Shown here: positions 12,641 through 32,863 of the stretch, one piece after another
How the letters are laid out: each line of letters opens with the position of its first letter
How positions within the stretch are numbered: position 1 is the stretch's first letter
NCBI GenBank assembly: GCA_964035545.1
Contig: OZ037771.1
Span: 3,304,128-3,368,127, forward strand
DNA from: Bugula neritina
Taxonomy: Eukaryota > Bryozoa > Gymnolaemata > Cheilostomatida > Bugulidae
Length of the DNA stretch: 64,000 nt
Reading direction: 5' to 3'
The notes under the pieces: generated by a model
What the model saw: the letters and a program-made list of their open reading frames with translations, nothing else
Told to the model about the DNA's origin: nothing
The model's database searches: none
Translations under genes and position numbers: made by a program

Positions 12641-15510
12641 TACCTAACTGCTACCACTAGCTTTGAACCTTAGCTTAGCTTGTTCACTGCCTGATGCATT
12701 TATGAGTCACTTTCAGTAATTTACTAAAAAGCCTCGAACTTTCAATTAAATATAACTAATAACTATAGTCTATAAGGATATTATAATTATGGTAAATTAA
12801 TAATATTAAATATATTATTTAATAGTACTAGAACTAACACTAAGTAATACTAGAAGTAATATTAATACAGATTACAGATACTAATAGTAATTCACTAATA
12901 GTGATACTATAACTAAGTCTAATAGTAACTGCAATGTCCAAGGACACTTCGACTATGACTGACAGTCACACTCACTTTAAGTGACTGCGATAATTATAAT
13001 CTTACTTTGTTTTATTGATTATAAAATTAAATAACAGTCGAGTTAATTTTACCACTTATCTGTTATCACTATCACGGTGACACTGACTATTACATCCACA
13101 ATCACTGCTTCACCGAAACTATCACTATCAGTATTACTATGACTTTACCTGGTCTAGTCTATAACCTAAGCTTATACTCAACTTATAGCTAACAAATAAA
13201 CAAGTTTTATTTAATTTTATAACTATAATACCAAATAATAATATAAAGTTCTACAAGATTACAACTTGGGTACAACTATTATTATAACTATAAGTATAAG
13301 TATAACTATAACTATAAGTATAAGATTAAGTATAAGCCTAAGGCTAAGCATCGGACTAACTTTAAGAGTTAGAGTAAAAGTAAGACTAACAGTAACTGCA
13401 AGACTAACAGTAATACAATTACTCACTAATAGTAATACTAACTCAGTAACTGTAAGATTTATTACAATTAAACAATCAATATTATCATTATGATTATCAT
13501 TATATGATTATAAGATTAGGTGTAATTCTATTTTTTACTTTTTCTTTTAGTTTTAGTTCACAGTTAGACTTGCTTCAAGTTTAAAGTAATGGAGTTAAAA
13601 GTCTCATCTCTAAGAAAAACACAATAAACCTGATTAAATTTCAACAGGCTTTAATTACTATTCTATAGCAGTAGAGTCCAATTCCACCATGATTATTTAA
13701 TAAGCACAACCTTAAACTTTTAAGACTAAGTGAAAGTTTGCAGGAAACTCCCAGCAGCATTCACCGGAAACTTCGAAACCGCAAGTTTGGCAGGTTGCTC
13801 ATCTAGCATTATTTTTATCATGACTGCCAATAATATCAATATTATTAAAATATCAGTAATGCGTCATAAATTTTAAAAATAATTGAAGCATATCAGCAGT
13901 AGCAATGTCATAATTTAAATTACAAATAATTATTTTAAGCGCCCTATCAACTCGTAGAGCAAACGAACACAAAAAGGAGACAACTCTACAAAGATAGCCT
14001 GCTAGTGAGTGATGAACTGATATAGATGTTAAAAAATCAAGCAGCAACACTTGCACTCTCTGTGGTGTGCTCAAAATCACCAGTTAAATAAATTACTTTA
14101 TTCTTATTTAGCACAATGGTCCACTTTCGTAATCATATCTTATTGCAACCGATAATCAATTCATTCAAAGCTGTTGAGCAAATTAAGCTCTATAGTCTCC
14201 AGAGTACTATAGTAGGCCTGCAATGTTGCTGTAGCCAAAAGTATAGAACTTACCTGCTACATTATTATACCTGAATGCAGTTTCTTTTAAGCCATCAGAA
14301 AAAAATTACCAGTGCCACAGCTATTTGAGACTAGTTGATACATATTATTTATTCCAATTATAAGATATATTCCCAATAAAAGTAAGGAATCAGCCTGAAG
14401 CAACTCACAATCCTGCTGCCATAGACACTTGTTATTCATCACTAAAACACCTAAACCTTTGCACAATGGCACAGCGACAGGTGCAAGGATGTAACTCTTG
14501 TGAGTTTTAAGTGGTCATTTATATGATGCCTTAAGGAAAGTGTGGGCTGGTTCACAGTTGTAAAACAGGCTCTCAATATAATATTCTTCAGGAAGTAATT
14601 ACTGTTGATCATATGCAACCAAAAGTGCACTAGAATTTAGAGTATTATACCAACACTACATCATTATTCCAGTAGGCTATGCTATCACCTAAGTTGTAGC
14701 ACATTGCCAGGTCATAATGTAGGCTTGTATTGCAGTTGACAATGACACATTACAGACCATAATAGAAGCTTGAATTACCTACTTTATTACAAATTGGCGT
14801 ATTACAGCATTGCATTTTAACATTCATATAGGCTGCAAGAACTGTGTCAATAAGCCATGGGATGCATAGGATGCATAAGCCATACAATGCAGGTATATCA
14901 TTGCCCCCTCTCTAGTGTCTGTGTTGTCTTATAAATCTCTCAAACCGGAAATGCTGCAACATTCCTTGGCTTTGACATTATGTGAAGAATGGATGCTCTA
15001 AGGGATGAATTTGTGGTAGCCGTTAGCAAGAACTCATGGTTATGGTTTCATTTATGCAACTGTTACCAAACATCAAAAGAAAAATTCAGTTGAAGTTTGG
15101 ATACGAAGTTTCCTTATCAGGTGCTATACCTGCAACCATCATTCAAAACCTCATCTTCTGTTTACAGTGGCATGTATTTTACTGACAGAATATCTCCTCA
15201 ATGCTGCTAACTAAATCACTGCCCCACGCCTCAGATGTTTTACATTTAATAGCTGCTATATTACATTCATGACTTACAAACACAGCAACTGTTGTATCAC
15301 AATATAAAAGCTGTACACGGTATCTCATGTTGGCAAATCTGCCACCTATGTCATTACATAATATACCATAACATTCTTCAAGCTCTGCACTAGCCTGCCC
15401 ATTATATTAAGATTGCCACTTCTGTATCCAGAATCTTGTATTATTTACAATTTACATAGTTAGATTTTGAGAAATATCATGATCAAGTTACTGCATCAAG
15501 TAACTTGCCA
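12641..15510. other. AT-rich intergenic region with degenerate simple repeats
   Basis: From about 12,770 to 13,500 the sequence is an irregular mix of AGTAATACTA, AGTATAAGTATAACTA and similar words, a pattern that recurs at 31.7-32.0, 50.2-51.0 and 61.7-61.9 kb. The rest shows no coding exon, tRNA or recognisable transposon protein that I can support. Confidence 0.5.
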
Positions 15511-15653
15511 TTAGGTGCAGTAATGGGGAAATTGAGATAGCCAAAGTTCTTTAATTGGTTTGGGTGAGGTTGGAGATTTTCACGAGAAAACAACTTTTAT
15601 TTCTAATCTAGAATACAGGCTTTTCTCAATTTCTCCATTACTGCATGTACCTC
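15511..15653. repeat. MITE-like element, copy 3
   Basis: Left end TTAGGTGCAGTAATGGGGAA, right end TCAATTTCTCCATTACTGCA, about 143 bp. The AATAAA (minus strand, 15596-15601) that could serve the exon at 15700-16149 lies inside this element. Confidence 0.8.
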
Positions 15654-15699
15654 AAAGCTGAAAACACAGCCGGCAAGGTAATTTGAGTTTGAATTGAGC

Positions 15700-16149
15700 T
15701 CAATTCGAGTAGTGATACTTGACAACGCACACTCCATTTACGCACTGACTGTAATGATTTTGAGCAAACATGATTACCCTCTTGAATTCTCGATCACTTG
15801 CAAGACTAAAGTAAATTTTATACAAGACAAAATCGTGTTCATTTAGTTTCCTACAATCAATGAAATCACGGTGTTGAGATCTTGTACATGTGAATTCACC
15901 ATCCGGCAACTGGCGATAGTTCCATTTGAATGTTCCCAAGTTCTTGTAACTTCCATTACCATCCGACTTAACGTCATCCAGTGAGTATTTAGATAGATCA
16001 ACAAAGAATGTGCAGCTGTGTTGAACTTTGTATGGTAGTTGGGGAGAAAACTGAAGAGATTTGGAAGTTATGAGCTTTAGCAGGGCTGTGTTATGTAAGC
16101 TCACATTAGCCCTAAAATCCAAAGAACTATCTATAGTTATCAGGCTAGT
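15700..16149 (-). CDS. Last exon of the terminal-exon array (E10), unrelated domain, function unknown
   Basis: It opens in phase 0 after an acceptor reading GGTCACCTCCTAG and runs 149 codons to a stop at 15700. The product starts TSLITIDSSLDFRAN and looks beta-rich, with blocks SDGNGSYKNLGTFKWNYRQL and FKRVIMFAQNHYS. It does not resemble the winged-helix-like exons upstream. I do not recognise the family; it recalls domains attached to transposon-derived proteins, but I cannot name one. A reverse AATAAA lies about 100 bases downstream. It may be a further alternative terminal exon of the array or a separate gene with an unseen first exon. Confidence 0.5.
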   Translation of the reverse strand, partial: TSLITIDSSLDFRANVSLHNTALLKLITSKSLQFSPQLPYKVQHSCTFFVDLSKYSLDDVKSDGNGSYKNLGTFKWNYRQLPDGEFTCTRSQHRDFIDCRKLNEHDFVLYKIYFSLASDREFKRVIMFAQNHYSQCVNGVCVVKYHYSN

Positions 16150-16794
16150 CTAGGAGGTGACCAGCAGCTAGTAATCGAATAACTTTCTATTTAAGAAACA
16201 CATGCACGGCTCTTAATAAATAACAACTTTGACTACTGCAAGTTCTCATTATTTCTGCCTAATGAGAGAGTTGTGTTAGAACTTAGAAGCATGCTTTCGT
16301 CTCCTACCAACATTTCAGGCAAAGTTTTATCTTTTTCAAAGTAAAAAGCACTTTGTTTTTAACCAAAGAAAAATGAAACTTGCGTGTTAAGAGAAATTTA
16401 TAGCAACTGCAGCGCAAATATTTTGTATATTTTATTTTTTTATATCGATTGTCATATGATCTTTTGATATATTATCAGAGCTTCACCACTGCAGTTGTTT
16501 TCAGAAATATTTACAAAAAATATTCCATTTACTCCAAACGCACTTTGCCAAGAAATGCTCGTATAATACGAGAATATACTTCTACAATCTAAAATACTCT
16601 TGTCAATATAACAGCATGTGACACACATTTGAAGTATACATTATAAAGTTTTCTGCAATAAAAGTTGGAGCCAATTTTTCTAGATAACGTGTAGAATCGA
16701 TGGTTACCATAAACAAATTAAAATATATTTGAGTGATAATTAGATTGTAGCACCAAAATAACAATAGCAAAACTAAAATTAAAGATGAAAAGAA

Positions 16795-17124
16795 TTAATG
16801 ATTGGAGCTTTCAACGAGTTTGAGAAAATCTGAGCAGAAAGAGTCCATTTCATCTGCGGATTTGGCTGTGAACAAGAAATGGTTTTTAATCTTTTTTGTC
16901 ACATAACCAAATCCTGCCAGAGCCATGCTGGACAGAAAATTTCTAGTTCGTTCAGCTGTATACCGATTGTTAGAATCAGGGGGTGCTGATTTCGCACATA
17001 ATACATTTCTAGCAGTGATTGTTCGGTCAACGTTACGATTGGCTAGAATAATGACCCTGTGAACATACTTTTTGTAAAGTAAAACAAGATCCTCTTTTCG
17101 GAATAGACCAGAATCAAGGACTGC
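16795..17124 (-). CDS. Alternative-type terminal exon E9, winged-helix-like domain
   Basis: The acceptor TGTACATTGCAG leads into phase 0 (AVLDSGLFRKEDLVLLYKKY) and the exon ends in a stop after 109 residues. It has the family core: a helix ending YVHRVIILA, an IT-type helix (TITARNVL), then TRNFLSSMALAGFGYVTKK with a following F-containing strand and an FC pair. It is closest to E8, including the shared KSAPPD and FTAKSADEMD blocks, so the two are a recent tandem duplication. A 19-nt intronic element complementary to the 24.2-kb element lies 470 bases upstream. No AATAAA is evident just downstream. Confidence 0.65.
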   Translation of the reverse strand, partial: AVLDSGLFRKEDLVLLYKKYVHRVIILANRNVDRTITARNVLCAKSAPPDSNNRYTAERTRNFLSSMALAGFGYVTKKIKNHFLFTAKSADEMDSFCSDFLKLVESSNH

Positions 17125-17593
17125 CTGCAATGTACACAACTAAAGAGTTCATATCAAATGGTGTTTCATCTACATATTGTCCTGGTATATTTCAAAGTTA
17201 TGAGCTGATTATGAGCCAATCAAAATTTGAGGAAATTTTAGAGGAATCGGCACAGGATTATTGAGCAATTAAAATTCTATACTCTGAAGACCAAATAAAT
17301 GCATAACCAATGCTCTATAGTCTCAATGCTTTAGATGTAGCCTCAGTTCTGAATTGATATGGTCAAGCGATTACAAGAAATAAAGACTTTTACAAGAGCA
17401 AAAACATGCAACGTAATTTTGATGTCCAAATTATTATAACACTTGAAAACGGCCCCAACTTTTTTGCAGAAAACTTACACATTTCAATATCAACATACCT
17501 GCTACAGTTTTGAAGCGGTATTATTTGAGATGCCAATTGATCTGTTTTCTACAAATACCCCAAACTTGACATTTGAAGAAAGTGATTGCACAC

Positions 17594-17612
17594 TGCGAAG
17601 TCAGTTTTGGTC
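17594..17612 (-). promoter_or_regulatory. Selector-like intronic element upstream of E9
   Basis: The plus strand reads TGCGAAGTCAGTTTTGGTC. An identical 19-mer lies upstream of E8 at 19397 while the flanks are unrelated. In the transcript it is complementary, with one mismatch, to one half of the single element at 24184-24216. Confidence 0.6.
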
Positions 17613-18611
17613 AGAACTTAATATGAAGTATGTATCTCGTGCCCCCCACCCTCACTTTAGTGCCAGCTTCTTTCTAACAAGTGTGGATATTTCTAGACAG
17701 AATAGGGGGAAATTATTACTATATTCAATACTGACATGCTTTTTTCGAGAACTTGTTCTATGTAAAAAAATTAGGATATATGACCAAGAGTTATACCTAT
17801 ACATTATTTTTAAGCCTGATACTAAATTTTTTGTATCAGAATATATTACGTGTGTTTGTGTGTGTGCTTAAAAATCTTGTGATTTAAAATTTTTTTAAAC
17901 CAGCTGTTCTTGCTCACAAAATTGAAATTCATCAAACCGGCTATACATTTTTCTATTATTTGTAACCTTGTTTTTATTGAAAACTGTTTGGGTAGGATTT
18001 AGGAAAAACTGGTGCAATTGAAAGTCAAGCATAGTTTTGCATGTATGTATTGCTCCTGTTCAACACGATCAATCTTAAATTAGTTGTATTCGGCTCAATA
18101 GATTGCATATATTACAGGCGCAAGGAGCAGAAAAGGAGACAAGCATAGCACTTGCTATTAATAGAGGCAACAGGGTTGGGAAAATATTGTTGTTGTCTAA
18201 CAGTAAAATTTTACAAATACTTGCTAGATATGAAGGGCAACTCTGTTAGGAGGTAGGATGATGGTTATTGTGAGGTATGTGCAAGTTCTTCTCATTAGGT
18301 TGTAAAATCATTACAGATACTTCTAATATAAGAACTTTCCAGCTCATGCTGAAGCTAATGTTATAGCTATCAAGTAAACTAATGTGAATGGATGAATCTT
18401 TAGTGGGAAGACTAAGATATGTTTATATGACCGAATACTGTTTCATACTTTCATAAACTACATAAAATATACATAACATGTATGTAAAATGTTAAAAAAT
18501 GTTGGAAGCATTTTAGCATAAAAAATTGTATCATTTAATATTTACAGGTCTGTTTTTAGGAACACAATTCTCACCAGAAATCATAGGTCTATCAGATGCG
18601 CAAGTATGAAC

Positions 18612-18947
18612 CTAATGTCTAGATAATTGAGCAAACTTCAGCAGTTCCAAGCAGAATGGGTCCATTTCTTCTGCTGATTTAGCAGTAAATGAAAAATAGT
18701 TCCTCTTCTTCAGTTTTTGAGTAACAGAACCAAATCCTGCCTGTGCCATGCAGGACAAAAAATCTCGAGTTCGTTCAGCTGTGAGTCTTTTACTATCATC
18801 TGGGGGTGCAGACTTAGCAGAAATTATGTCTCTAACAGAGATTGTTCTGTCAGTTTTACGGCTAGCTAATAGGATGACTTTTGAAACGTACTTTTTGTAG
18901 AGTAAAACAAGATCTTCCTTGCAGAAATTACCAGAATTAGGGTTCGC
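18612..18947 (-). CDS. Alternative-type terminal exon E8, winged-helix-like domain
   Basis: Phase-0 acceptor TGTACATTACAG; 111 residues starting ANPNSGNFCKEDLVLLYKKY and ending in a stop. Core motifs: YVSKVILLAS, TISVRDII, then DFLSCMAQAGFGSVTQKLKK and FSFTAKSAEEMD. It is a near duplicate of E9. A reverse ATTAAA at 18534-18539 could direct polyadenylation. The fold assignment is inference from the helix-helix-helix-wing order; DNA binding is not shown. Confidence 0.68.
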   Translation of the reverse strand, partial: ANPNSGNFCKEDLVLLYKKYVSKVILLASRKTDRTISVRDIISAKSAPPDDSKRLTAERTRDFLSCMAQAGFGSVTQKLKKRNYFSFTAKSAEEMDPFCLELLKFAQLSRH

Positions 18948-19396
18948 CTGTAATGTACACAACTATAAAATTGACAAAAGAGCGCCCACTATAGTAAAAA
19001 GCCGCCATATACTTTGTATCTACTCTGAGGTAGAAAAGTTGTCGAATGCTGTTTGGAAAATATTAGGTTGCAGATATTGTATAAATTACTATTTTCTGTA
19101 GTAGTGGATGCAAAACTAAAGTACTTCAGGAATAAACAGACTGCAGAGATATATGTATATAAACAAAAAGTGTGCATTTTTGAACACTTGCAAAAGATGA
19201 TCCCTGAAGCTTTAATTTACATTATAAGACAACTTGATTTTGTAATTAAAACACTCAGGAAATTAAATTATGTTTTGTAGACAAAGTAACAGTTTTAATA
19301 GACGACTTATGCAGAGATTATGTTTTATAGAAAATATAGCTCAAAAATAAATATGTCACAAATAATAATTTTAGTTATCTTATTGTATTACATTAT

Positions 19397-19416
19397 TGCG
19401 AAGTCAGTTTTGGTCT
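19397..19416 (-). promoter_or_regulatory. Selector-like intronic element upstream of E8
   Basis: The plus strand reads TGCGAAGTCAGTTTTGGTCT, 449 bases upstream of the E8 acceptor. It matches the 17594 element exactly over 19 bases and the reverse of the 24.2-kb element with one mismatch. Confidence 0.6.
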
Positions 19417-19495
19417 CGCCTGAAAACCTGATATCTAGAGACAAGCAAAACACTAATTACATGTGAATAGAATAGACCTATAGTTTATTAAACCC

Positions 19496-19882
19496 TCAAG
19501 AATAAAACGGGTAGGTCTGCGCAGCTAGTGCTTCGAGCTTCGTCTTTTGGCAGTCTGTTAGGCCATACTGGGTTAATTTAGGAGTTAAATAGTAGCTCTG
19601 CATGTATTCGGAATGAGCTACACTATAAATATTTAGCTGCTCAGCCGTTGCTGTAGGATTCTTAACAAACCCAACTTGTTCATTGTAGTCTCCTAAACCA
19701 TTCAATTTCAACTCATTGAACACTTGTAATACAGTAGATATATCTGGTCTTCTACCCCAACAGTATGACATCCGAATTTGACGACATGATACAAACTTTC
19801 CAGGAGACTTGAGTACTTTTTTGATGATACTGTTTCGGTTACATCTTTTACTTTTGGCAGCTTCTTCTAAATATGAATTTAC
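19496..19882 (-). CDS. Alternative-type terminal exon E7, diverged member
   Basis: The acceptor GTTGTGGGTTTTTAG opens phase 0 (VNSYLEEAAKSKRC) and 128 residues run to a stop. It is the most diverged copy. The core is recognisable as SCRQIRMSYCWGRRPDIST, then VFNELKLNGLGDY and GFVKNPTATAEQLNIY, the last shared with E4-E6. Its acceptor is only 124 bases downstream of the E6 stop, so the two cannot have long separate 3' ends. A reverse AATAAA at 19484-19489 is immediately downstream of the stop and may serve E6 as well. Confidence 0.6.
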   Translation of the reverse strand, partial: VNSYLEEAAKSKRCNRNSIIKKVLKSPGKFVSCRQIRMSYCWGRRPDISTVLQVFNELKLNGLGDYNEQVGFVKNPTATAEQLNIYSVAHSEYMQSYYLTPKLTQYGLTDCQKTKLEALAAQTYPFYS

Positions 19883-20006
19883 CTAAAAACCCACAACAGC
19901 AGTGAAATGCTTATGAAAGAAAACCCATAACCTGCAATATTCTCATCAAACAAGATGGAAATAAATCTTGCTTTTAAGGAAATCTACAAAGACTATTCAC
20001 CAAAAC

Positions 20007-20372
20007 CTATATTGCGCTACTTTTCCAATCGTCAAAAGTTGCTAAGCCATATAACTTCTGGTAAGTTTCTTGTTGATCTCTGCGAACACGGTCACTTGAA
20101 GAGCCGCCACAGGCAGATGCTGCATTCAATGTTTTTTTATAGGACTCTGGCTTTATGTCATATACCCCTAACATTTCACTAGTCAAATTAGGATTTTTAT
20201 AAAACACATTCCCAACGATGTGGCCATAACCTAAACTGGCTAACTTCTGCATAGAATAATAAATATTTTCCACAAACTCAGGTGTTCTCTGCTTGTAGCA
20301 TTGTGTAAATTCCAATTGCCTCTTACACACTGTGTTTCCTTTCAAACACAAGATCTTTCTCTCAAGAGATTT
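20007..20372 (-). CDS. Alternative-type terminal exon E6
   Basis: Phase-0 acceptor CAATTGTTCTGTAG; 121 residues beginning KSLERKILCLKGNTV, ending in a stop. It shares with E4/E5 the block SMQKLASLGYGHIVGN, then FYKNPNLTSEMLGVYDI. It has no polyadenylation hexamer before the E7 acceptor, so it probably shares the E7 3' end or is weakly used. Confidence 0.62.
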   Translation of the reverse strand, partial: KSLERKILCLKGNTVCKRQLEFTQCYKQRTPEFVENIYYSMQKLASLGYGHIVGNVFYKNPNLTSEMLGVYDIKPESYKKTLNAASACGGSSSDRVRRDQQETYQKLYGLATFDDWKSSAI

Positions 20373-20470
20373 CTACAGAACAATTGATGGCTACACAGCT
20401 ACCAAACTTTTATATGAACTTCTTTACATCAACAATAGACTTAATATTCAATAAGTCAAAGGATAAGGTT

Positions 20471-20486
20471 GGTCTTTATAGACAGG
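20471..20486 (-). promoter_or_regulatory. Selector-like intronic element upstream of E6
   Basis: The plus strand reads GGTCTTTATAGACAGG, a perfect 16-base reverse complement (in the transcript) of part of the 24.2-kb element. It lies about 100 bases upstream of the E6 acceptor. Confidence 0.65.
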
Positions 20487-20630
20487 AAGTAGATGTACTT
20501 TAGTTTACAAACACACAGCAACAAAAAACTTTATTACACATATCTGATAATGAATAAAGCTGAGAACGAAATCAGATTACAATTGTAGCATAACATGAAC
20601 ATATAAGCATGTGTTTATCTGCCACGTGGC

Positions 20631-20969
20631 TTAGAACAAAGAGTCATGAAGGTCATTCAGTTCTTTAAGTTTATCACTAGTCACTTGGTGATTTCCTTTA
20701 GTGGATGCCAGTTTCTGGGTGTATTCATAACGAGAAATTCCATAAAATTCAAGCTGTTGATCACTTAACCTTGGATTTTTAAAAAATCGTCCTTTTATTA
20801 GATAGCCATATCCAGTTTGCGAAAGGGCTTTCATAGCACGCTCAATTCTCAACCCAAGAGCTTTTTCATGGTTTTTCCGATTAATACAGTATCTAACTTG
20901 TGTTATGTTAACAACTTTTCCGTGGGCACATAGAATCCGTTGCACCAATAACTGCTGGCTAAGACTTTC
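20631..20969 (-). CDS. Alternative-type terminal exon E5
   Basis: Phase-0 acceptor GGATTTTTAG; 112 residues starting ESLSQQLLVQRILCAHGK and ending in a stop. Blocks: NITQVRYCI (second helix), then AMKALSQTGYGYLIKGRFF (recognition helix and wing in my reading), then KNPRLSDQQLEFYGIS. It has exactly the length of E4 and is its closest relative. A reverse AATAAA lies at 20530-20535. Confidence 0.68.
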   Translation of the reverse strand, partial: ESLSQQLLVQRILCAHGKVVNITQVRYCINRKNHEKALGLRIERAMKALSQTGYGYLIKGRFFKNPRLSDQQLEFYGISRYEYTQKLASTKGNHQVTSDKLKELNDLHDSLF

Positions 20970-21021
20970 CTAAAAATCCACAACAACATGCAGAAGAATA
21001 TGCCAGTTTAGCAAAAAATTT

Positions 21022-21039
21022 GGTCTCTATAGACAGGTG
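21022..21039 (-). promoter_or_regulatory. Selector-like intronic element upstream of E5
   Basis: The plus strand reads GGTCTCTATAGACAGGTG. It pairs in the transcript with 18 bases of the 24.2-kb element, the single difference being a G-U wobble. It lies about 50 bases upstream of the E5 acceptor. Confidence 0.65.
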
Positions 21040-21153
21040 ATTAGAATTTAGAAGACCAAAGTTAAAAATATTTTTTGACATAATTAAAAACCATTAAAAC
21101 CCTCAATTGCTTATTTTATGTACATTTTTGTAAAAGTATTTTCAACTAAATTG

Positions 21154-21492
21154 CTAAAACAATGTTTGGTGAATTTCCTCTAATTTTTTCAGCTGCTCTC
21201 CACTTATTCTGTAGTTGCCTTTGTTGGAAAAGAGTCTTCGGCTATATTCATCCCGTGAGATTCCATACATCTTCAATTGTTTGTCTGTTAATCGGGGATT
21301 TTTGAAAAACCTTCCTTTAATGAAGTAGCCGAACCCAGTATCAGCGAGTGTCTTCATAGTTGATTCAATTCGAAGTCCAAGGCCTTTTTCGTGGTTTTTG
21401 GAGCTGATACAATAGCGCACTTGAGTGATGTTGACAGCTTTCCCATGAGAACACAATATTCGTTGAACTAGTAATTGTTGACTTAGGCTTTC
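21154..21492 (-). CDS. Alternative-type terminal exon E4
   Basis: Phase-0 acceptor GTGTCACTTTGTAG; 112 residues, same length as E5. It begins ESLSQQLLVQRILCSHGK and carries NITQVRYCI, then MKTLADTGFGYFIKGRFFKN and LTDKQLKMYGISRDEY, then a stop. Only a variant signal (CATAAA, reverse of 21115-21120) is seen downstream. Confidence 0.68.
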   Translation of the reverse strand, partial: ESLSQQLLVQRILCSHGKAVNITQVRYCISSKNHEKGLGLRIESTMKTLADTGFGYFIKGRFFKNPRLTDKQLKMYGISRDEYSRRLFSNKGNYRISGEQLKKLEEIHQTLF

Positions 21493-21540
21493 CTACAAAG
21501 TGACACACTCAACTTTACATAGGCCTATAATTTACAGTAT

Positions 21541-21555
21541 GGTCTTTATAGACAG
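21541..21555 (-). promoter_or_regulatory. Selector-like intronic element upstream of E4
   Basis: The plus strand reads GGTCTTTATAGACAG, a perfect 15-base complement of the 24.2-kb element, about 48 bases upstream of the E4 acceptor. Confidence 0.65.
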
Positions 21556-21843
21556 TGTATAGCTATATTTGTATATTGAAAAACAGACTCCTTTTGCTCA
21601 ATTTTACATGGAAGTGTGAATATTTTATTTATTTCAGTGTTAGGCCAGTAGTATTTTCATAACCTATTGACGAAAATGGAAAACTAAGAACTTCATGATA
21701 TAAACTATATTGATGATTGAAAAATAAAATTTATTGTACATACGAGTTACATCATATGAACTCAAATTTATACATAAAATACATACCACTACACGCTGAT
21801 ACAATGAAATATGATTTACATTACCAAATTAGAAAATTTGAAC

Positions 21844-22218
21844 TTATATTTGGGCTGATTCACACCATGCCGATTCTGGTATTCCTAATACCAACAAAGT
21901 ACTCTTACAAAATGAATTGAGGGTATTCCACTTGTTTCTATAAAATGACACTTTTTTAGTTCTACCCTTTGCAACTCTACCAAACCCAATACTTGCAACT
22001 CTATACAAAAAGTTCTTCGCATTAGTTGCAGTGTACACTTTTTTTCCCAGTTCATTACGATCAAATGGACAATAGTGTAACTGCTGAATTCTAGTATGGG
22101 TTATCGCAATAACCGTATCGTCCATTGTAAGCAACCGTTTGATTTGGTATGCGAAATCTTTAACAAAATCTGCATCACTCATTGACAATATTTCTGATTC
22201 TTGTTGGATATTCAGTCT
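21844..22218 (-). CDS. Alternative-type terminal exon E3, winged-helix-like domain
   Basis: The acceptor CACTTTGTTCCAG opens phase 0 (RLNIQQESEILSMSDADFVK); 124 residues to a stop. Core: YQIKRLLTMDD, AITHTRIQQL, CPFDRN, then AKNFLYRVASIGFGRVAKGR and VSFYRNKW, then LNSFCKSTL. It has the same length and near-identical blocks as E2. The frame is also open upstream to an ATG at 22284, so unspliced initiation is an alternative. A reverse AATAAA lies at 21730-21735. Confidence 0.7.
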   Translation of the reverse strand, partial: RLNIQQESEILSMSDADFVKDFAYQIKRLLTMDDTVIAITHTRIQQLHYCPFDRNELGKKVYTATNAKNFLYRVASIGFGRVAKGRTKKVSFYRNKWNTLNSFCKSTLLVLGIPESAWCESAQI

Positions 22219-22445
22219 CTGGAACAAAGTGCAAAAATTAAGACGTACAGAGCTGACACAGCACTGGACATGTGAAATTTTCATTGTAAGTCAGTTTCTT
22301 TGATTGTGAAATTTTAAACTTAATGACCAGTGCTTAAATTATGGCACCAAGTTACAAATAGTATTTTAAAAATGAGTTTAAGTCATTATATCAAGTGGAA
22401 TAAATATGAATAGCATGATTTCAACCAGCAAATAAATAATTATTG

Positions 22446-22458
22446 GGTCTTTATAGAC
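22446..22458 (-). promoter_or_regulatory. Selector-like intronic element upstream of E3
   Basis: The plus strand reads GGTCTTTATAGAC followed by GG, a 13-base perfect core complementary to the 24.2-kb element, about 230 bases upstream of the E3 acceptor. Confidence 0.6.
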
Positions 22459-22699
22459 GGTGTATACATTACAACTAAGTGTTAATCAGGAAACCCGCGT
22501 TCTATGAATAATTCACTAGAATTTAAATTGATCAACTGTATGTAATCAAAACTTATTATAATTGAAGACAGACTCGAGAATAGTGATTGAGAAATTTTAT
22601 TATGCGACCATATTAGTTTTGTGAAATATATACATATCTTAAAATTACAGCCATTAAATTCTATACAATAGGTTATTAACCAAAATTTCAAGGAAGAAT

Positions 22700-23074
22700 T
22701 TACGACAAAGCAGAAACCATCCACATAGACTCAGAAATTGCTAATGCTGCCAGAGTGTTTCTACAGAATGAGTTTAGATTTAACCACTTATTTCTATAAA
22801 ATGTTACTCTTTTTGTCTCACTCATGGAAACTGTGCCAAACCCAATACTAGCAATTCTACATAAAAAGCTTTTGGCTAAGGTAGCTGTAAAAACTTTCTT
22901 CCCTTTTTCGTTCCGTTCAAACGGACAAAAGCGAAATTGCTGAATTCTAGTGTGAGTTATCGCTGAGACAGTGTCATCCATTGTCAACAATCGCTTGATT
23001 TGATAGGCATAGCTTTTAACAAAGTCAGTATCACTCATTGACATTATTCCAGGTGGCTGATGGATTTTTACTTT
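22700..23074 (-). CDS. Alternative-type terminal exon E2, winged-helix-like domain
   Basis: The acceptor TTTCGTTTTTTTAG opens phase 0 (KVKIHQPPGIMSMSDTDFVK); 124 residues to a stop. Core: YQIKRLLTMDD, AITHTRIQQF, CPFERN, then AKSFLCRIASIGFGTV and FYRNKWLNLNSFC. It is a sister of E3. A reverse AATAAA lies at 22596-22601. Confidence 0.7.
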   Translation of the reverse strand, partial: KVKIHQPPGIMSMSDTDFVKSYAYQIKRLLTMDDTVSAITHTRIQQFRFCPFERNEKGKKVFTATLAKSFLCRIASIGFGTVSMSETKRVTFYRNKWLNLNSFCRNTLAALAISESMWMVSALS

Positions 23075-23241
23075 CTAAAAAAACGAAATTATCTTTACAG
23101 ATTGAGAATAGAAGCCAAGAATCACATGTATCACATAAAAATATATTGACCCGAGACCATTAAATAAAAATTCAAACAAAGTTATGATGTACAAAATAGT
23201 GGTACCTAAGAAAATTCAAGAGCTGTAATACCATAACACTA

Positions 23242-24032
23242 CTAGGTGACCATATGCACATCTGGCATACCAGATTTTTCTTGTTCTAGACGACGAACAC
23301 GTTTCCAAAAGTATTCAAGCCAGCCTAAAATTATATTAAACACTAAAAGCAGTTGGTCTTTATTGCAGCAGACATGATATTATCTTGGAAATTTAGAACC
23401 ATATTATTATATTGTAAACATTACAGCCATGTCTGACCAAACTCACCATTTGAAGCTTTAAAAGTGTGATAGCCCAACTGTTGTGCGACTTCTTTTGCTT
23501 TAGTTTGAATTCCAACTCCTGTTGGAGTTTTCCCGGACGCTTTAAATGCCCAGTACCAATCAAGTATAGCAGCATTAATTTCAGCGTATGCATTTGATTT
23601 TAAAAGTCTCTGTTTTTTAGTGATGAAAGGATTGGAAAACCTAAACCATTCAGCCATTATTTTGTGCTTATTCTGGACAATGTTAGTTATTGTAAATTTG
23701 CTTTGACCATACTGTAGGCACAGAGCTTTTATTGATACACCACTGTCGTGAAGCTGGCAGCATTGAAACTTTTGTTCTAATGATAGTACTGTTGAAGATG
23801 GCTTGGTGTATGTATCTTTCATTTTCAGAGATGACATAACTCTTGATTGTTCAAGTGTAGTGGCACTCATAGAATCACCAACTTTAGATTTCAAAGCAAT
23901 GTCCTGATTAGAAGACGAATCAGCTGATTTCATGCCAAACCAATTGATGGAGTTATCTTCATTCATAGTTCTTTCATGATGTAGTAAACCATCGCCATGT
24001 GTGCTCAAAGGTGACTCATGCGAATTAAAGCT
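23242..24032 (-). CDS. CENP-B/pogo-type DNA-binding module, two exons (C and D), no transposase domain
   Basis: Exon C (23447-24032) opens in phase 0 after ATTCACTGTAG; exon D (23242-23324) completes it through a phase-1 intron and ends in a stop; 222 codons. After an acidic Ser/Thr-rich stretch comes a psq/CENP-B N-type helix-turn-helix (LSLEQKFQCCQLHDSGVSIK, with YGQSKFTITNIVQNKHKI). A CENP-B/Tc5-type second HTH follows (INAAILDWYWAFKASGKTP, AKEVAQQLGYHTFKASNG, then GWLEYFWKRVRRLE across the splice). The DDE catalytic part of pogo/Tigger transposases is absent, so this is a domesticated DNA-binding remnant or module. The phase-0 start needs an upstream exon; the 29172 donor or exon A fits. 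Confidence 0.72.
23350..23363 (-). promoter_or_regulatory. Degenerate selector-like element between exons C and D
   Basis: The plus strand reads CAGTTGGTCTTTAT, matching the centre of the 24.2-kb element apart from a two-base deletion and losing the GACAG part. It lies about 275 bases upstream of the E2 acceptor. Confidence 0.35.
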
Positions 24033-24183
24033 CTACAGTGAATTAGTATGCCAGGTTGTTTATATAGAACTAATTTCGATATGCCCACTATAGAGGCTGT
24101 TTTGATGCCAAGAAAATAGGGAGGGGTGCTTTGTGATACATGTGATTCACAATAATCTAGTTAACACTGTTTTATAATTTCAC

Positions 24184-24216
24184 CACCTGTCTATAAAGAC
24201 CAAAACTGATTTCGCA
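24184..24216 (-). promoter_or_regulatory. Docking-like intronic element (single inverted copy)
   Basis: In the transcript sense (minus strand) it reads TGCGAAATCAGTTTTGGTCT followed by TTATAGACAGGTG, 33 bases. All other copies of this word in the array are in the opposite orientation. It can therefore pair with the elements upstream of E3, E4, E5 and E6 through its second half and with those upstream of E8 and E9 through its first half. It lies in the intron before exon C. The orientation and pairing are read from sequence; a role in choosing exons is inference by analogy with arthropod Dscam. Confidence 0.55.
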
Positions 24217-24407
24217 TTTTATGTTAAATGAAAACATGAAGGTTAGATTGATATTGAAAATTATATGAACTTGACTACCCATAGATTTACAATCGTTTGT
24301 AAATCTATAAGTTAAAAAACAGCTCGTAATTATTTGAAATATACAAGGATAATTCATTGCCATACCATGGCTTTAAAATAAAAATGTAACCAAGTCATAG
24401 ATAGTTC

Positions 24408-24424
24408 GCATAGTTTATACCACA
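24408..24424. repeat. 17-bp inverted repeat, right partner in the transcript
   Basis: The plus strand reads GCATAGTTTATACCACA; its exact reverse complement is at 25615-25631. The pair brackets exons A and B. Confidence 0.6.
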
Positions 24425-24632
24425 TCCAGCGTCATTTGCAATGTTGTGCCGGACATATAACTACATTTCTTAATAAAAAAAACACGCTACATTTTCAAAG
24501 CGACCGCAGAGTAATTGGCAAATTTATTATTTACAATTTTATTACAAAAAAAGATGTGAAAGTACATTAAAATATTTATTACAAAAATGAGGACTAGAAA
24601 ATCTGAAAAGCCATCCAAAAAGGCAATTGAAA

Positions 24633-24998
24633 TCAAAATACATAACTCTTCTTTTGCTTCCCAATTAAAAGTGGCCATAGCAATTGAAACCACCGAAGAT
24701 GAGATTTACTAGTGAAAGAAGCATCCAGCTCAGATCCACTTTGCGATTTCACTGCTCGGTTTACAATTCGAAGACAGTACTTAAACTTGTTACGTATTCT
24801 GTCCAGGCATTGGTGAGGACTATGTGGATGCTTGAGTAAGAATTCTTTAAGAACAGATTCATATGTTTGAGTAGTTCCAGTATAGTTTACTTCTGTTATA
24901 AGTTTCTTTCGATAAGCCTCATTAGATGTTATGATTGAGACCAAATCATTGACTTCTTCTAGCGACCAAGAAAGCTTTTGACATAGCTCCATATCAAT
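24633..24998 (-). CDS. SANT/Myb-like DNA-binding terminal exon (B)
   Basis: The acceptor ACATGAAATTCTAG opens phase 0 (IDMELCQKLSWSLEEVNDLV); 121 residues to a stop. The W-S-x-E-E-V start, YESVLKEFLLKHPHS and QCLDRIRNKFKYCLRIVNRA give the three-helix pattern of trihelix/Myb-SANT domains often found in domesticated transposon proteins. A reverse AATAAA at 24575-24580 supports this as a true last exon. It joins in phase 0 to exon A (25468-25593), giving a 163-residue product if A supplies the start, or it could follow the 29172 donor. DNA binding is inferred from the fold. Confidence 0.68.
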   Translation of the reverse strand: MDMELCQKLSWSLEEVNDLVSIITSNEAYRKKLITEVNYTGTTQTYESVLKEFLLKHPHSPHQCLDRIRNKFKYCLRIVNRAVKSQSGSELDASFTSKSHLRWFQLLWPLLIGKQKKSYVF

Positions 24999-25467
24999 CT
25001 AGAATTTCATGTAGATGGTTTATAAACGCATATCACCAAGCAACAGATTATGAGCTTACCATACAAAATCTCAGTAAAACAAAAAACATGTTCATTACGA
25101 GTTAGTTAGCTTGAAATACAAATTTGAACAAGTTTGAAAAACCATTATCAAACTCTATGCAACATAGGACAAAAAGCACAGTTGAGTGGACAGACAACTG
25201 CCTAACAGTGAACCTTTTCACAAATATTTTTATATTCAAAAATTTGTGCTTTACTGTTTGACTAAGTTGCAGTCAGCATATACATAGACAATGGATGCAT
25301 AAGCACAGTAATAGCTATAAACAAGTAATATAGTCTGGAAAACATGGCATAGAAAAAGTTTGGAGCACTTTGGCACACATGCTGATACAAATTATAAAAG
25401 TTTCAATTGAAAATTTTACCAAATTCCTAAATTCGATTGACAAGACTATGGCTAAAAATCTACTTAC

Positions 25468-25593
25468 TTTGTGTACCAAATCTTGAGCATATCCCAGCAC
25501 AGTTCTTGAATGGTTAAGCACCATTTCATGGAAGTCCAAGTATTTGTAGACTATGCAGTATATACAGTATAGCTTTGCCATCGCGAAATTCAT
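25468..25593 (-). CDS. Exon A: phase-0 first or cassette exon before the SANT exon
   Basis: ATG at 25593 opens MNFAMAKLYCIYCIVYKYLD and the exon ends DLVHK before a strong donor GTAAGTAG, in phase 0, 42 codons. The frame also stays open upstream to an acceptor-like CACCCTAG at about 25609, so it could be a symmetric internal exon. Because its donor is phase 0, it can legally join to every array exon downstream. Tyr/Cys-rich; no domain recognised. Confidence 0.55.
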
Positions 25594-25614
25594 TTTGGGC
25601 GAAAACGACTAGGG

Positions 25615-25631
25615 TGTGGTATAAACTATGC
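25615..25631. repeat. 17-bp inverted repeat, left partner in the transcript
   Basis: The plus strand reads TGTGGTATAAACTATGC, the exact reverse complement of 24408-24424. It lies just upstream of exon A on the transcript. Confidence 0.6.
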
Positions 25632-25985
25632 TCGTTAAACAGTTGTCTGCCCATTAACAGACTGCTGCCCAGCCTTTGAGCTCTAAGTATTGCCAAAACA
25701 AACTATAGTTAGCATAGTTACTATAGCTGAAAATAGTACTGGCATTCCAATATTCAAAAATACTTTACACAATGGGGGACATTGTCTAGAGCATAGCTCA
25801 GAAGTAATGCCTACACTGCAGAAAATGAAGAGAGAGCAAGCATAAGAAATTGGGTAGTAAGAAATTATTTGTGGTAATATTGTTCTGGTGATCTTAATTT
25901 CTGGTAAACTTGAAGTCAACCATTTAATACTACATTCAGGTTTATTAGGTGAAAAATATGTAAAAAGTTCATTTTATAAAAAAAA

Positions 25986-26294
25986 CTACTGTAAACATCG
26001 AACACAAAACTCATTTAAGTCATCATGTAGACGGAATAAGATTTGTCCTTTTTGACCTTTTCGTATGGTACCGAAACCTGCACCAGTCATGCAGAGTAAA
26101 AACTGTAATGATCTGTTTCTTTTATGTTTCCCTTGACCATCCCGAGGACAGAACTTTCCCACGGTGAGGTCTCTTAGAGTCAATTCTCTACCCATATTTT
26201 CTAAACTTCTTGCTTTGTTCACAATTCGCTTCACGTGGGCTTTATACTTGCCAAATAAATCATCTTTTAGAAAATCTCCAAAATCTTCATTAAC
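25986..26294 (-). CDS. Alternative-type terminal exon E1, winged-helix-like domain
   Basis: The acceptor TTGCACATTTTCTTAG opens phase 0 (VNEDFGDFLKDDLFGKYKAH); 102 residues to a stop. Core: HVKRIVNKARS, ELTLRDLTVGKFCPRD, then SLQFLLCMTGAGFGTIRKGQ and LFRLHDDLNEFC. It is most like E8/E9 in layout but diverged. A reverse AATAAA at 25941-25946 follows the stop. It lies upstream of exon A, so its 5' partner must be further upstream; the phase-0 donor at 29172 is the candidate I see. Confidence 0.65.
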   Translation of the reverse strand, partial: VNEDFGDFLKDDLFGKYKAHVKRIVNKARSLENMGRELTLRDLTVGKFCPRDGQGKHKRNRSLQFLLCMTGAGFGTIRKGQKGQILFRLHDDLNEFCVRCLQ

Positions 26295-28536
26295 CTAAGA
26301 AAATGTGCAACTTGAATATAGTCAGAAACATCAATTTCATAATGAAACATGGATAAACTTGACTTCTGGATACAAGCCTACTATTGGTATAACTTAAACG
26401 AATCAGGCGACGTATTAGTTTTATAACTTATAACTTACACTAAACATGCAACAGTACTATTACCATGGCTTACATTGAGAGCAGATTGAATATTCACTAT
26501 CTAATTGCACAACATTATTGAGTCAAGGTAGAGTCATGAAAGCATAAAGATCAACTTCCAATCAATCCAAAATTATATTACTAAAAACTTTTGGCACAAA
26601 CATTTACCATTATTGTACAACAAGCAGGGAACAATAAATCATCTGCCCAATTATTTCACCCAGAACAAATTCAAATGTTGACTTTTCATAACAAAAACAT
26701 TCTTTTCATATGCTAATTAATTGACTGATGGATGATAAATTTTACTGTATCAATTAAAATTTACAATGTTTCTAGGTTAAATCAAAATCACTCTACAATT
26801 GATATTACAACAACTACACCACTTTAAAACTGCCTTTGGAAATTGCATTGCAAAGAGTTGCCAACACAAGGAAAGCATGTCACCATCTGAAATAGACTTT
26901 TATCACAGTGAAATATTAAAGGGTATATGCCCCCCCCCCCCCCCCCCCGTAAAATTGCTGACAGTTTGAAGAAAGCTATCAGTGGTCTCAACTTTCTATT
27001 TATTAATAAAAATTGAGATTCCTACATGGATTAGAGTATTGACTTGACGCTCAACAACTTTGCATTGTTCTCGAGGAAAGGTTAGCAAGTTTTCGCCAAC
27101 AGCTAGAGTAATTGTTGGGCACCAGAACGTATTACATGAGAAGCAATAATACATTGCATAGAGGAACACAACTCCTTAGGCAAGCAGGCAGTTTCACAAA
27201 TTCATCCGAATTGAACAAACATTTTCAGTTATAGACTTTAAAGCTGCTGATAAGATGCATATAGTAAGTGCCTATCTACCCTATCTAATACATAAGTTGC
27301 CCATCCTATTCCAAGTGACAGATTCTTACAGAAGCCATCAATTACAATATTTAAAGTAATTTAATATAATGTATACACACAGCTGTACATAAACAAATAG
27401 ACCCACACAAATAAAACCACAACTAATCAACAGTGTAATCATACATACAGCCATTACCATTCATATTTTCCTTACCTGATCCAACAGCAGCCACCAGCTT
27501 TGAGTATTCCAAGTTTTTCCACCAGTTATCACATTTCCTCAATATTTTTTGCAGTCAACCCACGGTTTCACTAGCAACTAGTGTTTATTAGCAGCAACAA
27601 CTTCAGTGTTTCCAAATATGTCACAGACTCTGCTTGAGATCATTTACTTTGAAATGTTCATATTGCAGGTACAAATAATAACACTATTGAAATACACAAG
27701 TAAAAATAGCATCTTGTAAATTGATGAGTAATATGAAAAAACATCCACTAGCAATAAGACGAAAAGCCACAAAACCTTAGGGGAACTTCACTACTACTAC
27801 TAACAGAAATCTCAATCTTATCACAAACATAAAAAAATGCTATATAAAAATCATGAATAAGAATTTGTCCACTCTTTAATACACTGAGCAGTAGTTCATC
27901 CCCACAGCAGTTAGCAGGTGAACGTATAAGAAGTTGAGACCACCGATTTCCTATGTTATGCTGTCTAGGTTACTTGAGTGTTAAGTGAAGGCAGTTATAT
28001 TGCCCACGCAGTGAAGAAGATGGCATTTAGAGACAGTTTAGATGCAGTATGAGGAGACATTGCACAGTGAAAACGCGAGAGTATATCCTGGGTAACACCG
28101 AAGTGGTACTCTATGAATATTGGAATGCCAACACAGCATTTTCACACTAACAGTGAAGTGGCCAGCAGCACTGGTGGTAGAAGAACTAGAAAGTCAAAGC
28201 ACTTTCTCATTTTTTAATTGAGAAAACTTCCTCAATTTGAAGAAGTGAAAATGAGTTTCTAGTACTTTTAACCACAAACTGCAGAAATCACACTGACTTG
28301 CTAGAGATGATGAGCTACGAATATGTATATTATATATTTTTAGAGCGAACAATCAAAACAAATAAATATATTAAATTTGATTTCAGGTTTCAATGGAAAA
28401 ATATTAAAAATCTGTGAGTCGGTATAAGTTTATACAATGTTTTGATTGGCGGTCATTAAATTATCAACTTCATATTACAAATCATGATATAAAAACCAGT
28501 CTGCCTGATTGACGACATAAGTGGCTAGCTAAGCGG
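26295..28536. other. Long non-coding stretch within the array
   Basis: I see no exon I can support. A poly-C run fills about 26931-26948. A short open segment near 27474-27530 (minus) ends in a good GTAAGG donor (LRKCDNWWKNLEYSKLVAAV) but has no clear acceptor or start, so it is left unannotated. Confidence 0.45.
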
Positions 28537-31225: not shown

Positions 31226-32863
31226 CTTTGCTGTGTGGGGAATGTATTATTTGGAAGTCAAAAGCTGAAAGAATATAAAAGTAACTCAAAAGCCTGTTTT
31301 ACATGTTATAAAACAAATAAAAGAACAGGTATAAAATTATAGCAATCCACACCAGATTTTGCATAAATAGAAGACAATTGCAATGATAAAACTAATATGC
31401 ACAACATTACCAAAAAGGAGAGAAAACTATAAGACAAACTGAGTTGCATAAATACTTGTTGGAGAAAAGACGTGAATAAATACGATGCAAATGAATTAAA
31501 ATTCAGATAGCTCATCGTGGTTTGATTATTACAGCACTAAGCAATTGGGCGCTTGAAATTCAAATAGAATGCTATTTTTTACTTGGGAAGATTTATCAAT
31601 ATTATTATTCTCAGCTATGTCTAAATTTCTGCAATTTTAATGCAGGTTTCTCTTAAATCAAAATTTAAAAAAATTATTTACATCAATAATATTAAATTTA
31701 ATATAATTAAAATTATAAATATATTCAATTTACCTATTTATATTGATATTCATATTGACTCGTCAACCTCAACCTGGGGAAAAAATAAGATCAGTTTTAG
31801 TTTAACTTTAAGTTTAAGACTGAGATTGGGAATAAAACTTCAATTTAAATTTGAAGTAAAAATTCAAGCTCATAACTAATAGTAATACTATTAGTATTAT
31901 TCTTTAAGTTTAACTTCAAGTATTAGTATTACATTTTGATTTACTGTTACACTTACTGTTAGTTACTAGTAATACTAATATTTAATTGTATATTCATACT
32001 CGCAGTCAGTGTCACTTCATCATGATTAGAATAAAATATATAAATGACAAATATGTAACAACATGGCGCAGCCGCAACAGTTTTAGCTACTTAATAAACT
32101 TGCCTTAATATTTAACAAAACATATACTATAAGAATACTTGTGTACGACTCATTGAATAAATTCTACGAGAACCGACTTCGCCACGGTAAATTGAACGCT
32201 TTTGCACCTACAGGAAATACGGGCACTTGTTGCAGGGCGTAAATGTGTCAAATTACATTCAAATGAGTAGATAACTCTGAAACCTACCGATAAATCAAGT
32301 GATGATAGTTTAACAATTGTGTTACTAAGCTGGAAGGAGAGTTGCTAGACTACATAGACTTGGCTAAATAAAATCTGTACTGTCTACATGCATATTTTAT
32401 AGTTCAAAATGTATTACTTTAGCTGTCTTAATGAAGACTTTAGCTCTCTTAAAAAAGAACAACTTGAATTCAAAAGATGTGTGAATTCAGTCTATAACTA
32501 TTGCCAGCATAATATAATGATATATCATGCATTTAGGGCTAACCCCAATCATCAAATGCTGTGCTTTTCAAGTATAACTGCCAAATTAAAATACAAAAAT
32601 TTTATTAGAACTATATCAGAAAGCAGTGCATTGACAGTACAGTTCAGAACTGTATCTCAAAAGACAAAGACTCAACATACTATGAGAATAAACAAGATCA
32701 ACTAGTTTTATATTACAACAAAATGTTAAAATTATACACAAAACAAGATAGCTTCCGTAGCAGCCAGATACACATATTTGGCCTTGACCTTGGCCCAAAG
32801 AGTAGAGGGTGTGACAACAGCAGGTGAAGTGATATATGCATGTGATATGGCTGTTGGTGCCGT
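31226..32863. other. Intergenic region between the zinc-finger gene and the ADAR 3' end
   Basis: It holds the promoter of the minus-strand zinc-finger gene on the left and the ADAR 3' flank on the right, where a reverse AATAAA lies near 32598. Bases 31,660-31,990 are a degenerate AT-rich repeat (TAATAGTAATACTATTAGTA and TTTAAGTTTAAG words). No gene is seen. Confidence 0.5.

Follow-up and report, generated by a model that had tools for sequence, protein, structure and literature searches.

An intronic element complementary to six introns of a terminal-exon array in Bugula neritina suggests exon choice by RNA pairing

The DNA analysed here is a stretch of 64,000 nucleotides (nt) from the bryozoan Bugula neritina (contig OZ037771.1, positions 3,304,128 to 3,368,127; hereafter the window), in which a minus-strand gene appears to carry a constant 5′ part followed by about thirteen alternative last exons. 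A short intronic element at ∼24.2 kilobases (kb), referred to as the hub, is complementary to the upstream introns of six of these 13 cassettes (E3, E4, E5, E6, E8 and E9), and further inverted repeats flank single cassettes. This arrangement suggests that RNA pairing in cis probably selects among ∼13 mutually exclusive terminal exons; that the pairing takes place in vivo, that it affects splicing and that the exons exclude one another is what we infer from the DNA sequence. Positions are those of the window, and the gene, its transcript and all features of the array are on the minus strand. Exon numbers E3 to E9 were kept from the original prediction, an earlier note on this DNA, and T1–T3, E1, E2 and E10 were added.

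The hub (24184–24217), recognized by inverted-repeat and duplex scans, has the organization of a composite docking site, and its minus-strand reading from 24216 to 24184 is TGCGAAATCAGTTTTGGTCTTTATAGACAGGTG. Its left half faces E8 and E9 and its right half E3 to E6, the two halves overlapping by 5 nt. The original prediction had placed here an element complementary to six introns, and both its coordinates and its sequence proved correct. The candidate E6 selector (20469–20486) is an 18 nt perfect complement of the right half, the E4 (21540–21556) and E3 (22446–22461) selectors contain perfect complements of 16 nt (21540–21555) and 13 nt (22446–22458), respectively, and the E5 selector (21019–21039) matches over 21 nt with one G-U pair, the wobble that had been described. 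Likewise, the E8 (19396–19416) and E9 (17593–17612) selectors match the left half with a single mismatch each, as claimed before, which is of the A/C type in transcript sense.

When a 53-nt hub region was scanned for duplexes against 15.5–29.2 kb, using 60 shuffled hubs as a control, ranks 1 to 6 were occupied by exactly the six named introns (−42.4, −33.9, −32.9, −31.9, −30.8 and −30.6 kcal/mol). The sixth rank of −30.6 kcal/mol stands against a lowest sixth-rank energy of −25.0 kcal/mol in the 60 shuffled hubs; the single best match of the shuffled hubs averaged −26.4 kcal/mol and reached −35.7 kcal/mol at the lowest. E3 is the weakest partner, with −26.7 to −26.9 kcal/mol over shorter stretches. 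Ranks 7–11 are weaker, include 25581–25625 (−29.0 kcal/mol) and 23336–23380 (−27.0 kcal/mol), and were left uncounted because each falls inside the range of the shuffled hubs' single best matches; jointly, they are nonetheless stronger than the corresponding shuffled ranks. Counted by distinct partners of at least 12 nt, the degree of the hub is six, as compared with a maximum of three in 500 shuffles (a maximum of one in 134 shuffles, two in 342 and three in 24).

These words are rare in the genome. With up to one mismatch, the two matches of the right-half 19-mer TGGTCTTTATAGACAGGTG in 215.8 Mb are the hub itself and the E5 selector, and the left-half word has four matches, a single transposon copy in addition to those of the hub, E8 and E9. 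A word dispersed genome-wide, which the original prediction had named as speaking against its own proposal, was therefore not what these counts revealed. With two mismatches the left-half word has 38 matches, compared with 10 for a reversed control, and 23 of the 38 are one identical variant. In the five copies inspected, this variant is part of the inverted repeats of a transposon family and has flanks unlike those of the hub. This family of DNA transposons, whose inverted repeats are ∼2.4 kb apart (C1:7305367 and 7307732), carries TGCGAAATCTGTTTTGGC, which resembles the left half of the hub either by chance or by descent. For the words of the hub, S2, S2′, S3 and S5 (stems described below), an origin as a dispersed repeat or as transposon inverted repeats was rejected on the genome word counts and the unrelated flanks, with the exception of the 15-mer of stem S1 (see below), which has six matches.

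The single-hub picture of the original prediction held for the hub itself, while it missed other stems, among them four exact inverted repeats of 15–17 nt, each flanking one cassette. S1 is an exact inverted repeat that flanks the BED cassette T1 (upstream arm 29045–29059, downstream arm 28285–28299). S2 flanks T2 (28114–28130 and 25740–25756; −37.2 and −38.4 kcal/mol), its downstream arm being located 3′ of the T2 AATAAA (25946). S3 flanks the SANT-like cassette T3, and its arms lie at 25615–25631, a 17-mer, and 24408–24424, where the word contains TATAAA in transcript sense. S5, also a 17-mer, flanks E1, with its docking arm at 24132–24148 and its selector arm at 23119–23135, 45 nt upstream of E2. 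Exact inverted repeats of at least 15 nt numbered six in 15500–29200, compared with a mean of 0.25 and a maximum of two in 100 dinucleotide shuffles, and those of at least 17 nt numbered four (mean 0.01, maximum one). As a control on real DNA, 20 stretches of 10 kb placed at round-number positions in this genome were searched for repeats of at least 15 nt that were not of low complexity and spanned 100–8000 nt; they contained 15 repeats in total, none in 12 of the 20 and at most three per stretch, several of them parts of long foldbacks, as against five in the richest 10 kb of the locus. Each of the 17-mers of S2, S3 and S5 has just two exact matches in 216 Mb, which are the two arms at the locus, in opposite orientation; allowing one mismatch, three additional matches elsewhere were found for S3, one for S2 and none for S5.

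A second duplex scan of 13000–31300, which required an exact seed of 10 nt, scored G-U pairs and was compared with 40 shuffles, yielded 15 duplexes at or below −28 kcal/mol (shuffled mean 2.2, maximum seven) and 12 at or below −30 kcal/mol (mean 0.9, maximum three). Newly found were S3′ (25640/25191), S2′ (27934/26982), S9 (17464/16646) and a hairpin at 15.5–15.6 kb. S2′ (docking arm 27931–27946, selector arm 26979–26994; −31.4 kcal/mol) is a possible selector pair for T2, its selector arm lying ∼690 nt upstream of that cassette and its 16-mer having two genome matches, both at the locus. S3′ (docking arm 25634–25653, selector arm 25191–25209; −35.6 and −33.7 kcal/mol) belongs to the SANT cassette T3, with the selector arm ∼190 nt upstream of the exon; of the three genome matches of its word CAGACAACTGYYTAAC, two are at the locus. 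As S3 and S3′ cross and have neighbouring docking words, they are mutually exclusive as nested folds. S9 (17451–17481 and 16641–16672; −30.2 kcal/mol, or −40.2 kcal/mol over a wider stretch) flanks E9, its upstream arm being a possible docking arm for E10 and its downstream arm lying upstream of the sole canonical E9 poly(A) signal (16436). The hairpin (15507–15645; −38 kcal/mol) holds the E10 AATAAA (15601) in its loop. Three of the 15 duplexes fall outside the model, namely this hairpin, an exon-to-exon duplex (28624/20092) and 21002/20231, and the hub–E3 pair (−26.7 kcal/mol) is not among the 15.

No sequence common to different stems was recognized by eye, complementarity being the property that they share. 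When 24 arm coordinates were tested, four of which belong to the hub, every one fell in non-coding DNA, although coding exons make up 37% of the array. Furthermore, S1, S2, S3, S5 and S9 each enclose exactly one cassette, for which the joint chance is 3.5e-4 if spans of these lengths are placed at random, a figure that is only rough because the stems were picked after inspection.

Duplicated cassettes allowed the selectors to be compared, within this genome rather than between species, with their 60-nt ungapped flanks and with fourfold degenerate sites. E4 and E5 share 77 of 112 residues and only 6 of 22 fourfold sites, which is about random; their flanks agree at 20 of 60 positions on each side and their selectors at 14 of 16, both versions pairing with the hub, as one of the changes in E5 gives a G-U pair. 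In E8 and E9, 70 of 109 residues and 19 of 33 fourfold sites are the same, so that silent sites are unsaturated, and the selectors are identical (19/19). Their flanks are unrelated, as the original prediction had noticed, with 15/60 and 17/60 identities. For E3/E4, E4/E6 and E5/E6, the two selectors are the same at 15 of 16 positions in each case, with flanks ranging from 16/60 to 27/60. When 150-nt flanks were compared with gaps allowed and set against 200 shuffles, seven of eight flanks showed nothing unusual; the eighth, downstream of E4/E5, was not equalled in any of the 200 shuffles and includes ∼100 nt of coding exon. E2 and E3 are likewise duplicates (82 of 124 residues, 9 of 30 fourfold sites) and carry different words, of S5 and of the hub, respectively. 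Retention of selectors amid diverged surroundings is what selection on pairing would predict.

The gene model was read from the sequence as follows. The last constant coding exon is placed with its end at 29172 (29172–29270, the start being arbitrary) and a putative donor AAAAG|GTTTGTG at 29172/29171. Downstream of it lie 13 open frames, each preceded by an AG acceptor and all in phase 0, as is the donor; acceptors were chosen by eye, and for E10, which has several close AGs, the in-phase one was taken. The cassettes end in stop codons, from which exactly one variable exon is expected per mRNA, and they encode several unrelated domain types. T1 (28537–28830) encodes a BED zinc finger (zf-BED, 43.8 bits, cut-off 20.6), and T2 (25986–26294) is homologous to the E8/E9 domain (30% identity; E = 1.6e-7 with E8 as the query). 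T3 (24633–24998) is Myb/SANT-like, with a Myb_DNA-bind_4 match below the cut-off (E = 0.017), and is followed by AATAAA at 24580, 24543 and 24528. E1 (also T4; 23421–24032) carries a CENP-B/Tc5-type helix-turn-helix (HTH_Tnp_Tc5, 27.9 bits, cut-off 22.2; CENP-B_N, 21.0 bits, cut-off 21.2) and, by reading only, a possible second exon at 23325–23235. E2 (22700–23074), a phase 0 open reading frame with the identity to E3 given above, is followed by the terminal cassettes E3 (21844–22218), E4 (21154–21492), E5 (20631–20969), E6 (20007–20372), E7 (19496–19882), E8 (18612–18947), E9 (16795–17124) and the last, E10 (15700–16149), in which a Gal-bind_lectin match stayed below the cut-off. Canonical poly(A) signals are found 3′ of most cassettes. 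Since the gap of ∼125 nt between E6 and E7 (19883–20006) contains no AATAAA or ATTAAA and E7 lacks a selector, the two cassettes may use a common 3′ end.

DNA binding is well supported for the domains of T1 and E1 and suggested for those of T3, E8, E9, T2 and E4–E7, grades that rest on domain matches, structure models and PDB matches. AlphaFold2 models of E4 and E8, built on shallow alignments of four and three sequences, had predicted local distance difference test scores of 84 and 82, respectively, and a helix-strand-helix-helix-strand-strand order like that of winged helices. A search of the PDB with the E4 model gave no confident match (best E 0.31), whereas the E8 model is weakly like MarR-type winged helices (best E 0.0098, template modelling scores up to 0.55 among the matches listed). 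Paralogous loci, looked for as a covariation test, were not found in the genome at E ≤ 0.01: apart from the query itself, the E4 domain matched E5 and E6 alone, the E8 domain matched E9 and T2 alone, and the constant exon had no match. Likewise, no protein homologue of the E4 cassette was found at E ≤ 0.01 among four candidates, a weak absence as the search needs shared 5-residue words, and one scan of viral contigs found nothing. The constant exon (30550–30921), in which a C-x2-C...H-type motif was seen by eye, has three protein homologues with 62–74% identity, from short contigs, and no Pfam match above the cut-off, and is possibly an undescribed conserved domain. No BTB domain was detected in the tested piece of the constant part (one exon).

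Taken together, the intronic complementary elements would fold the nascent pre-mRNA as a relay. S1, S2 and S3 in series would loop out the first three cassettes and carry the donor to the hub, which would then pair with one selector at a time, so that intervening acceptors and poly(A) sites are looped out, one acceptor is set ∼0.6–1.0 kb from the donor and the chosen acceptor is the nearest usable one. The six hub cassettes would be exclusive through competition for the hub, S2′ and S3′ would play the selector role for T2 and SANT and S5 for E2, and S9, formed after the hub–E9 pair, would serve E10; the loops may also conceal many of the bypassed poly(A) sites. Each protein would then combine the common N-terminal part with a single C-terminal domain out of several, which probably bind DNA. 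As computed, E1 is 5140 nt from the donor in the unfolded transcript and 753 nt once S1, S2 and S3 have formed. With the hub paired, the paths to E3, E4, E5 and E6 fall from 6954, 7680, 8203 and 8800 nt to 811, 631, 631 and 679 nt, and those to E8 and E9 from 10225 and 12048 nt to 1019 and 1039 nt; E10 is reached through S9 over 1184 instead of 13023 nt, and E7, via the E6 pairing, over 1169 nt. Donor–acceptor distances would thus be mostly equalized by the stems and the hub. That chained single-cassette loops and a composite hub, by equalizing distances, act as such a relay, and so form a non-arthropod docking/selector system that possibly arose independently, seems to us about as likely as not.

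Several observations weigh against pairing as the selecting agent. No selector was found for E7 in the hub duplex scan of 15.5–29.2 kb, and the strong duplexes 28624/20092 and 21002/20231 do not fit the scheme. Differences within stems were of the G-U and A-C kinds in a ratio of 10 to 5 over 14 alignments, two of which (hub–E3 and hub–25.6) drifted off the stem; as this bias is mild and not significant, the stem differences leave selection on the RNA strand unproven, and the difference of E8 and E9 from the hub is itself of the A-C kind. Use of T1 would require S1 to be open, and S1 is weaker than the other stems because its 15-mer occurs six times exactly in the genome, two of these being at the locus. 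In addition, a canonical poly(A) signal was not found in the expected place for T1, E4, E6 and the possible second exon of E1, and the sole canonical signal of E9 (16436) lies outside the S9 loop.

The poly(A) signals bear directly on an alternative in which the stems mainly suppress premature cleavage and polyadenylation, the loops hiding cassette poly(A) sites while splicing factors set the exon choice. It is in keeping with this that in T2, T3, E2, E3, E5, E7 and E8 the next arm lies 3′ of the first canonical signal, and pairing has been proposed to suppress intronic polyadenylation in human genes (PMC8052449). Because the E9 signal and the four places without one are at odds with it, and a one-to-many competition for the hub is unnecessary for it, we regard this explanation as unlikely. 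The words might instead mark promoters, each terminal exon having its own and being attached through trans-splicing in the manner of Drosophila mod(mdg4), with the intronic TCTATAAAGACC words as TATA boxes; in mod(mdg4) the 3′ exons indeed have independent promoters (PMC12692577). CTATAAA, in transcript sense, is present in the E3, E4 and E6 selectors, and TATAAA also in the downstream arm of S3, upstream of E1. However, the E5 version, TATAGAG, breaks the box and nevertheless pairs with the hub, no TATAAA was seen by eye in the E8 and E9 selectors or in the downstream arms of S1, S2, S2′, S3′, S5 and S9, and the exact reverse complement at the hub and the unique flanking pairs would be left unexplained, all of which makes such promoters distinctly improbable.

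The remaining two explanations do without any role of pairing and are, in our view, very improbable. In the former, the words are dyad-like sites for a protein, such as an insulator, enhancer or splicing-factor site, and the right-half core GTCTTTATAGAC is in fact nearly self-complementary, so that one protein site could be read both ways; yet the complementarity extends up to 18 nt, past the 12-nt dyad, and the left half and the pairs of S1, S2, S3, S5 and S9 are mutually unrelated by eye and still paired. The latter, given the same very slight chance, regards the words as functionless relics of inverted repeats, transposon ends or exon duplication. The left half of the hub is 16/18 like the inner part of the long inverted repeat of the transposon, and duplication of stem arms is a proposed origin of selectors (PMC6071210), whereas the flanks of the transposon matches are unrelated in the five copies inspected, the words are unique or nearly so in the genome, and selectors were retained although the silent sites of E4 and E5 look random.

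Selection by RNA pairing has its closest model in exon 6 of insect Dscam1, where one intronic docking element is faced by many competing upstream selectors and one exon is chosen (PMC6071210, PMC8042237, PMC11802352); such pairing has been described in the Dscam clusters and in some further genes of insects (PMC6071210, PMC8042237), and at exon 6 hidden pairings cooperate with docking–selector pairs and favour distal exons (review PMC11802352), which provides a partial precedent for the bryozoan relay. Like the Dscam1 element, the hub is one intronic element complementary to several variable introns, and the Dscam-like reading given by the original prediction is well supported at the level of the sequence. 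In contrast to Dscam exon 6, the hub is not beside the constant exon: between the constant donor at 29172 and the hub at 24217 there are 5 kb and three cassettes (BED finger, T2 and SANT-like), each with its own flanking stems, and for this reason the hub appears to be where a relay ends. Unlike in Dscam1 exon 6, moreover, the exons here are terminal ones with unrelated domain types rather than similar internal exons, the hub is a composite of two overlapping selector classes, serial flanking stems with unique words are present, and the host is a bryozoan.

The original prediction had known of no such arrangement at terminal exons encoding DNA-binding domains. Pairing at terminal exons does have precedents, as competing RNA pairing selects alternative terminal exons in Drosophila PGRP-LC, CG42235 and pip (PMC9013439) and a terminal exon is looped out in human FGFR1OP2 (PMC8052449), while its combination with DNA-binding domains and a relay is unprecedented in the literature searched. 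The array resembles the PGRP-LC type in its alternative terminal exons, the use of which is predicted here, and in its mutually incompatible intronic pairings (the shared hub; S3 versus S3′), and differs from PGRP-LC, CG42235 and pip in gene and phylum, in its ∼13 cassettes and in joining a shared hub to serial single-cassette loops. In srp and Dscam1 exon 9, bidirectional pairing of complementary intron sequences on both sides of an exon loops it out (PMC6071210, PMC8042237). Complementary intron sequences surround the looped exon in those genes, in the human loop-outs and in the present array alike, but srp, Dscam1 exon 9 and FGFR1OP2 involve one or two exons or one cluster, whereas here successive loops follow one another through a whole series of terminal exons. 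Drosophila lola also combines a single N-terminal part with numerous alternative C-terminal exons. This design is found again in mod(mdg4), where constant exons are joined to 3′ exons from independent promoters by trans-splicing (PMC12692577), as opposed to the pairing in cis proposed for the bryozoan gene. The literature was searched for bryozoan, mollusc or annelid docking/selector systems, for terminal-exon RNA pairing and for lola/mod(mdg4); among the matches listed, judged from titles and the openings of abstracts and including few subscription papers, there was no comparable case. Within this literature, competing pairing at terminal exons is known already and only the combination with DNA-binding domains and a relay is new.

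Some observations made elsewhere in the assembly concern other subjects. In the window, a long inverted repeat with exact blocks of 28 and 19 nt ∼4 kb apart (39631–39727 and 43756–43849) is probably a mobile element or foldback, and AT-rich, microsatellite-like inverted repeats of the ACTAATAGTAATACT type are clustered at 50194–50790. For the mitochondrial contig, genetic code 5 gives the best reading (ATA = Met, AGA = Ser in COX1). A COX1 match in a large contig (C6:11174072-11175412), with a score near that of the mitochondrial contig, is probably mitochondrial DNA that entered the nuclear genome recently, and another without TGA codons (contig C17:12213-13505) is possibly bacterial DNA in the assembly.

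If the relay is true, a bryozoan regulator gene pairs one N-terminus with any of ∼13 C-terminal domains, largely regardless of their order, and exon choice by RNA pairing would extend beyond insect genes to the DNA-binding domain of a lophotrochozoan regulator. The locus would then be a compact natural test of chained RNA loops against distance and order in the choice of splice sites and poly(A) sites, its word pairs being sufficiently unique within the 216-Mb genome for clean mutation.

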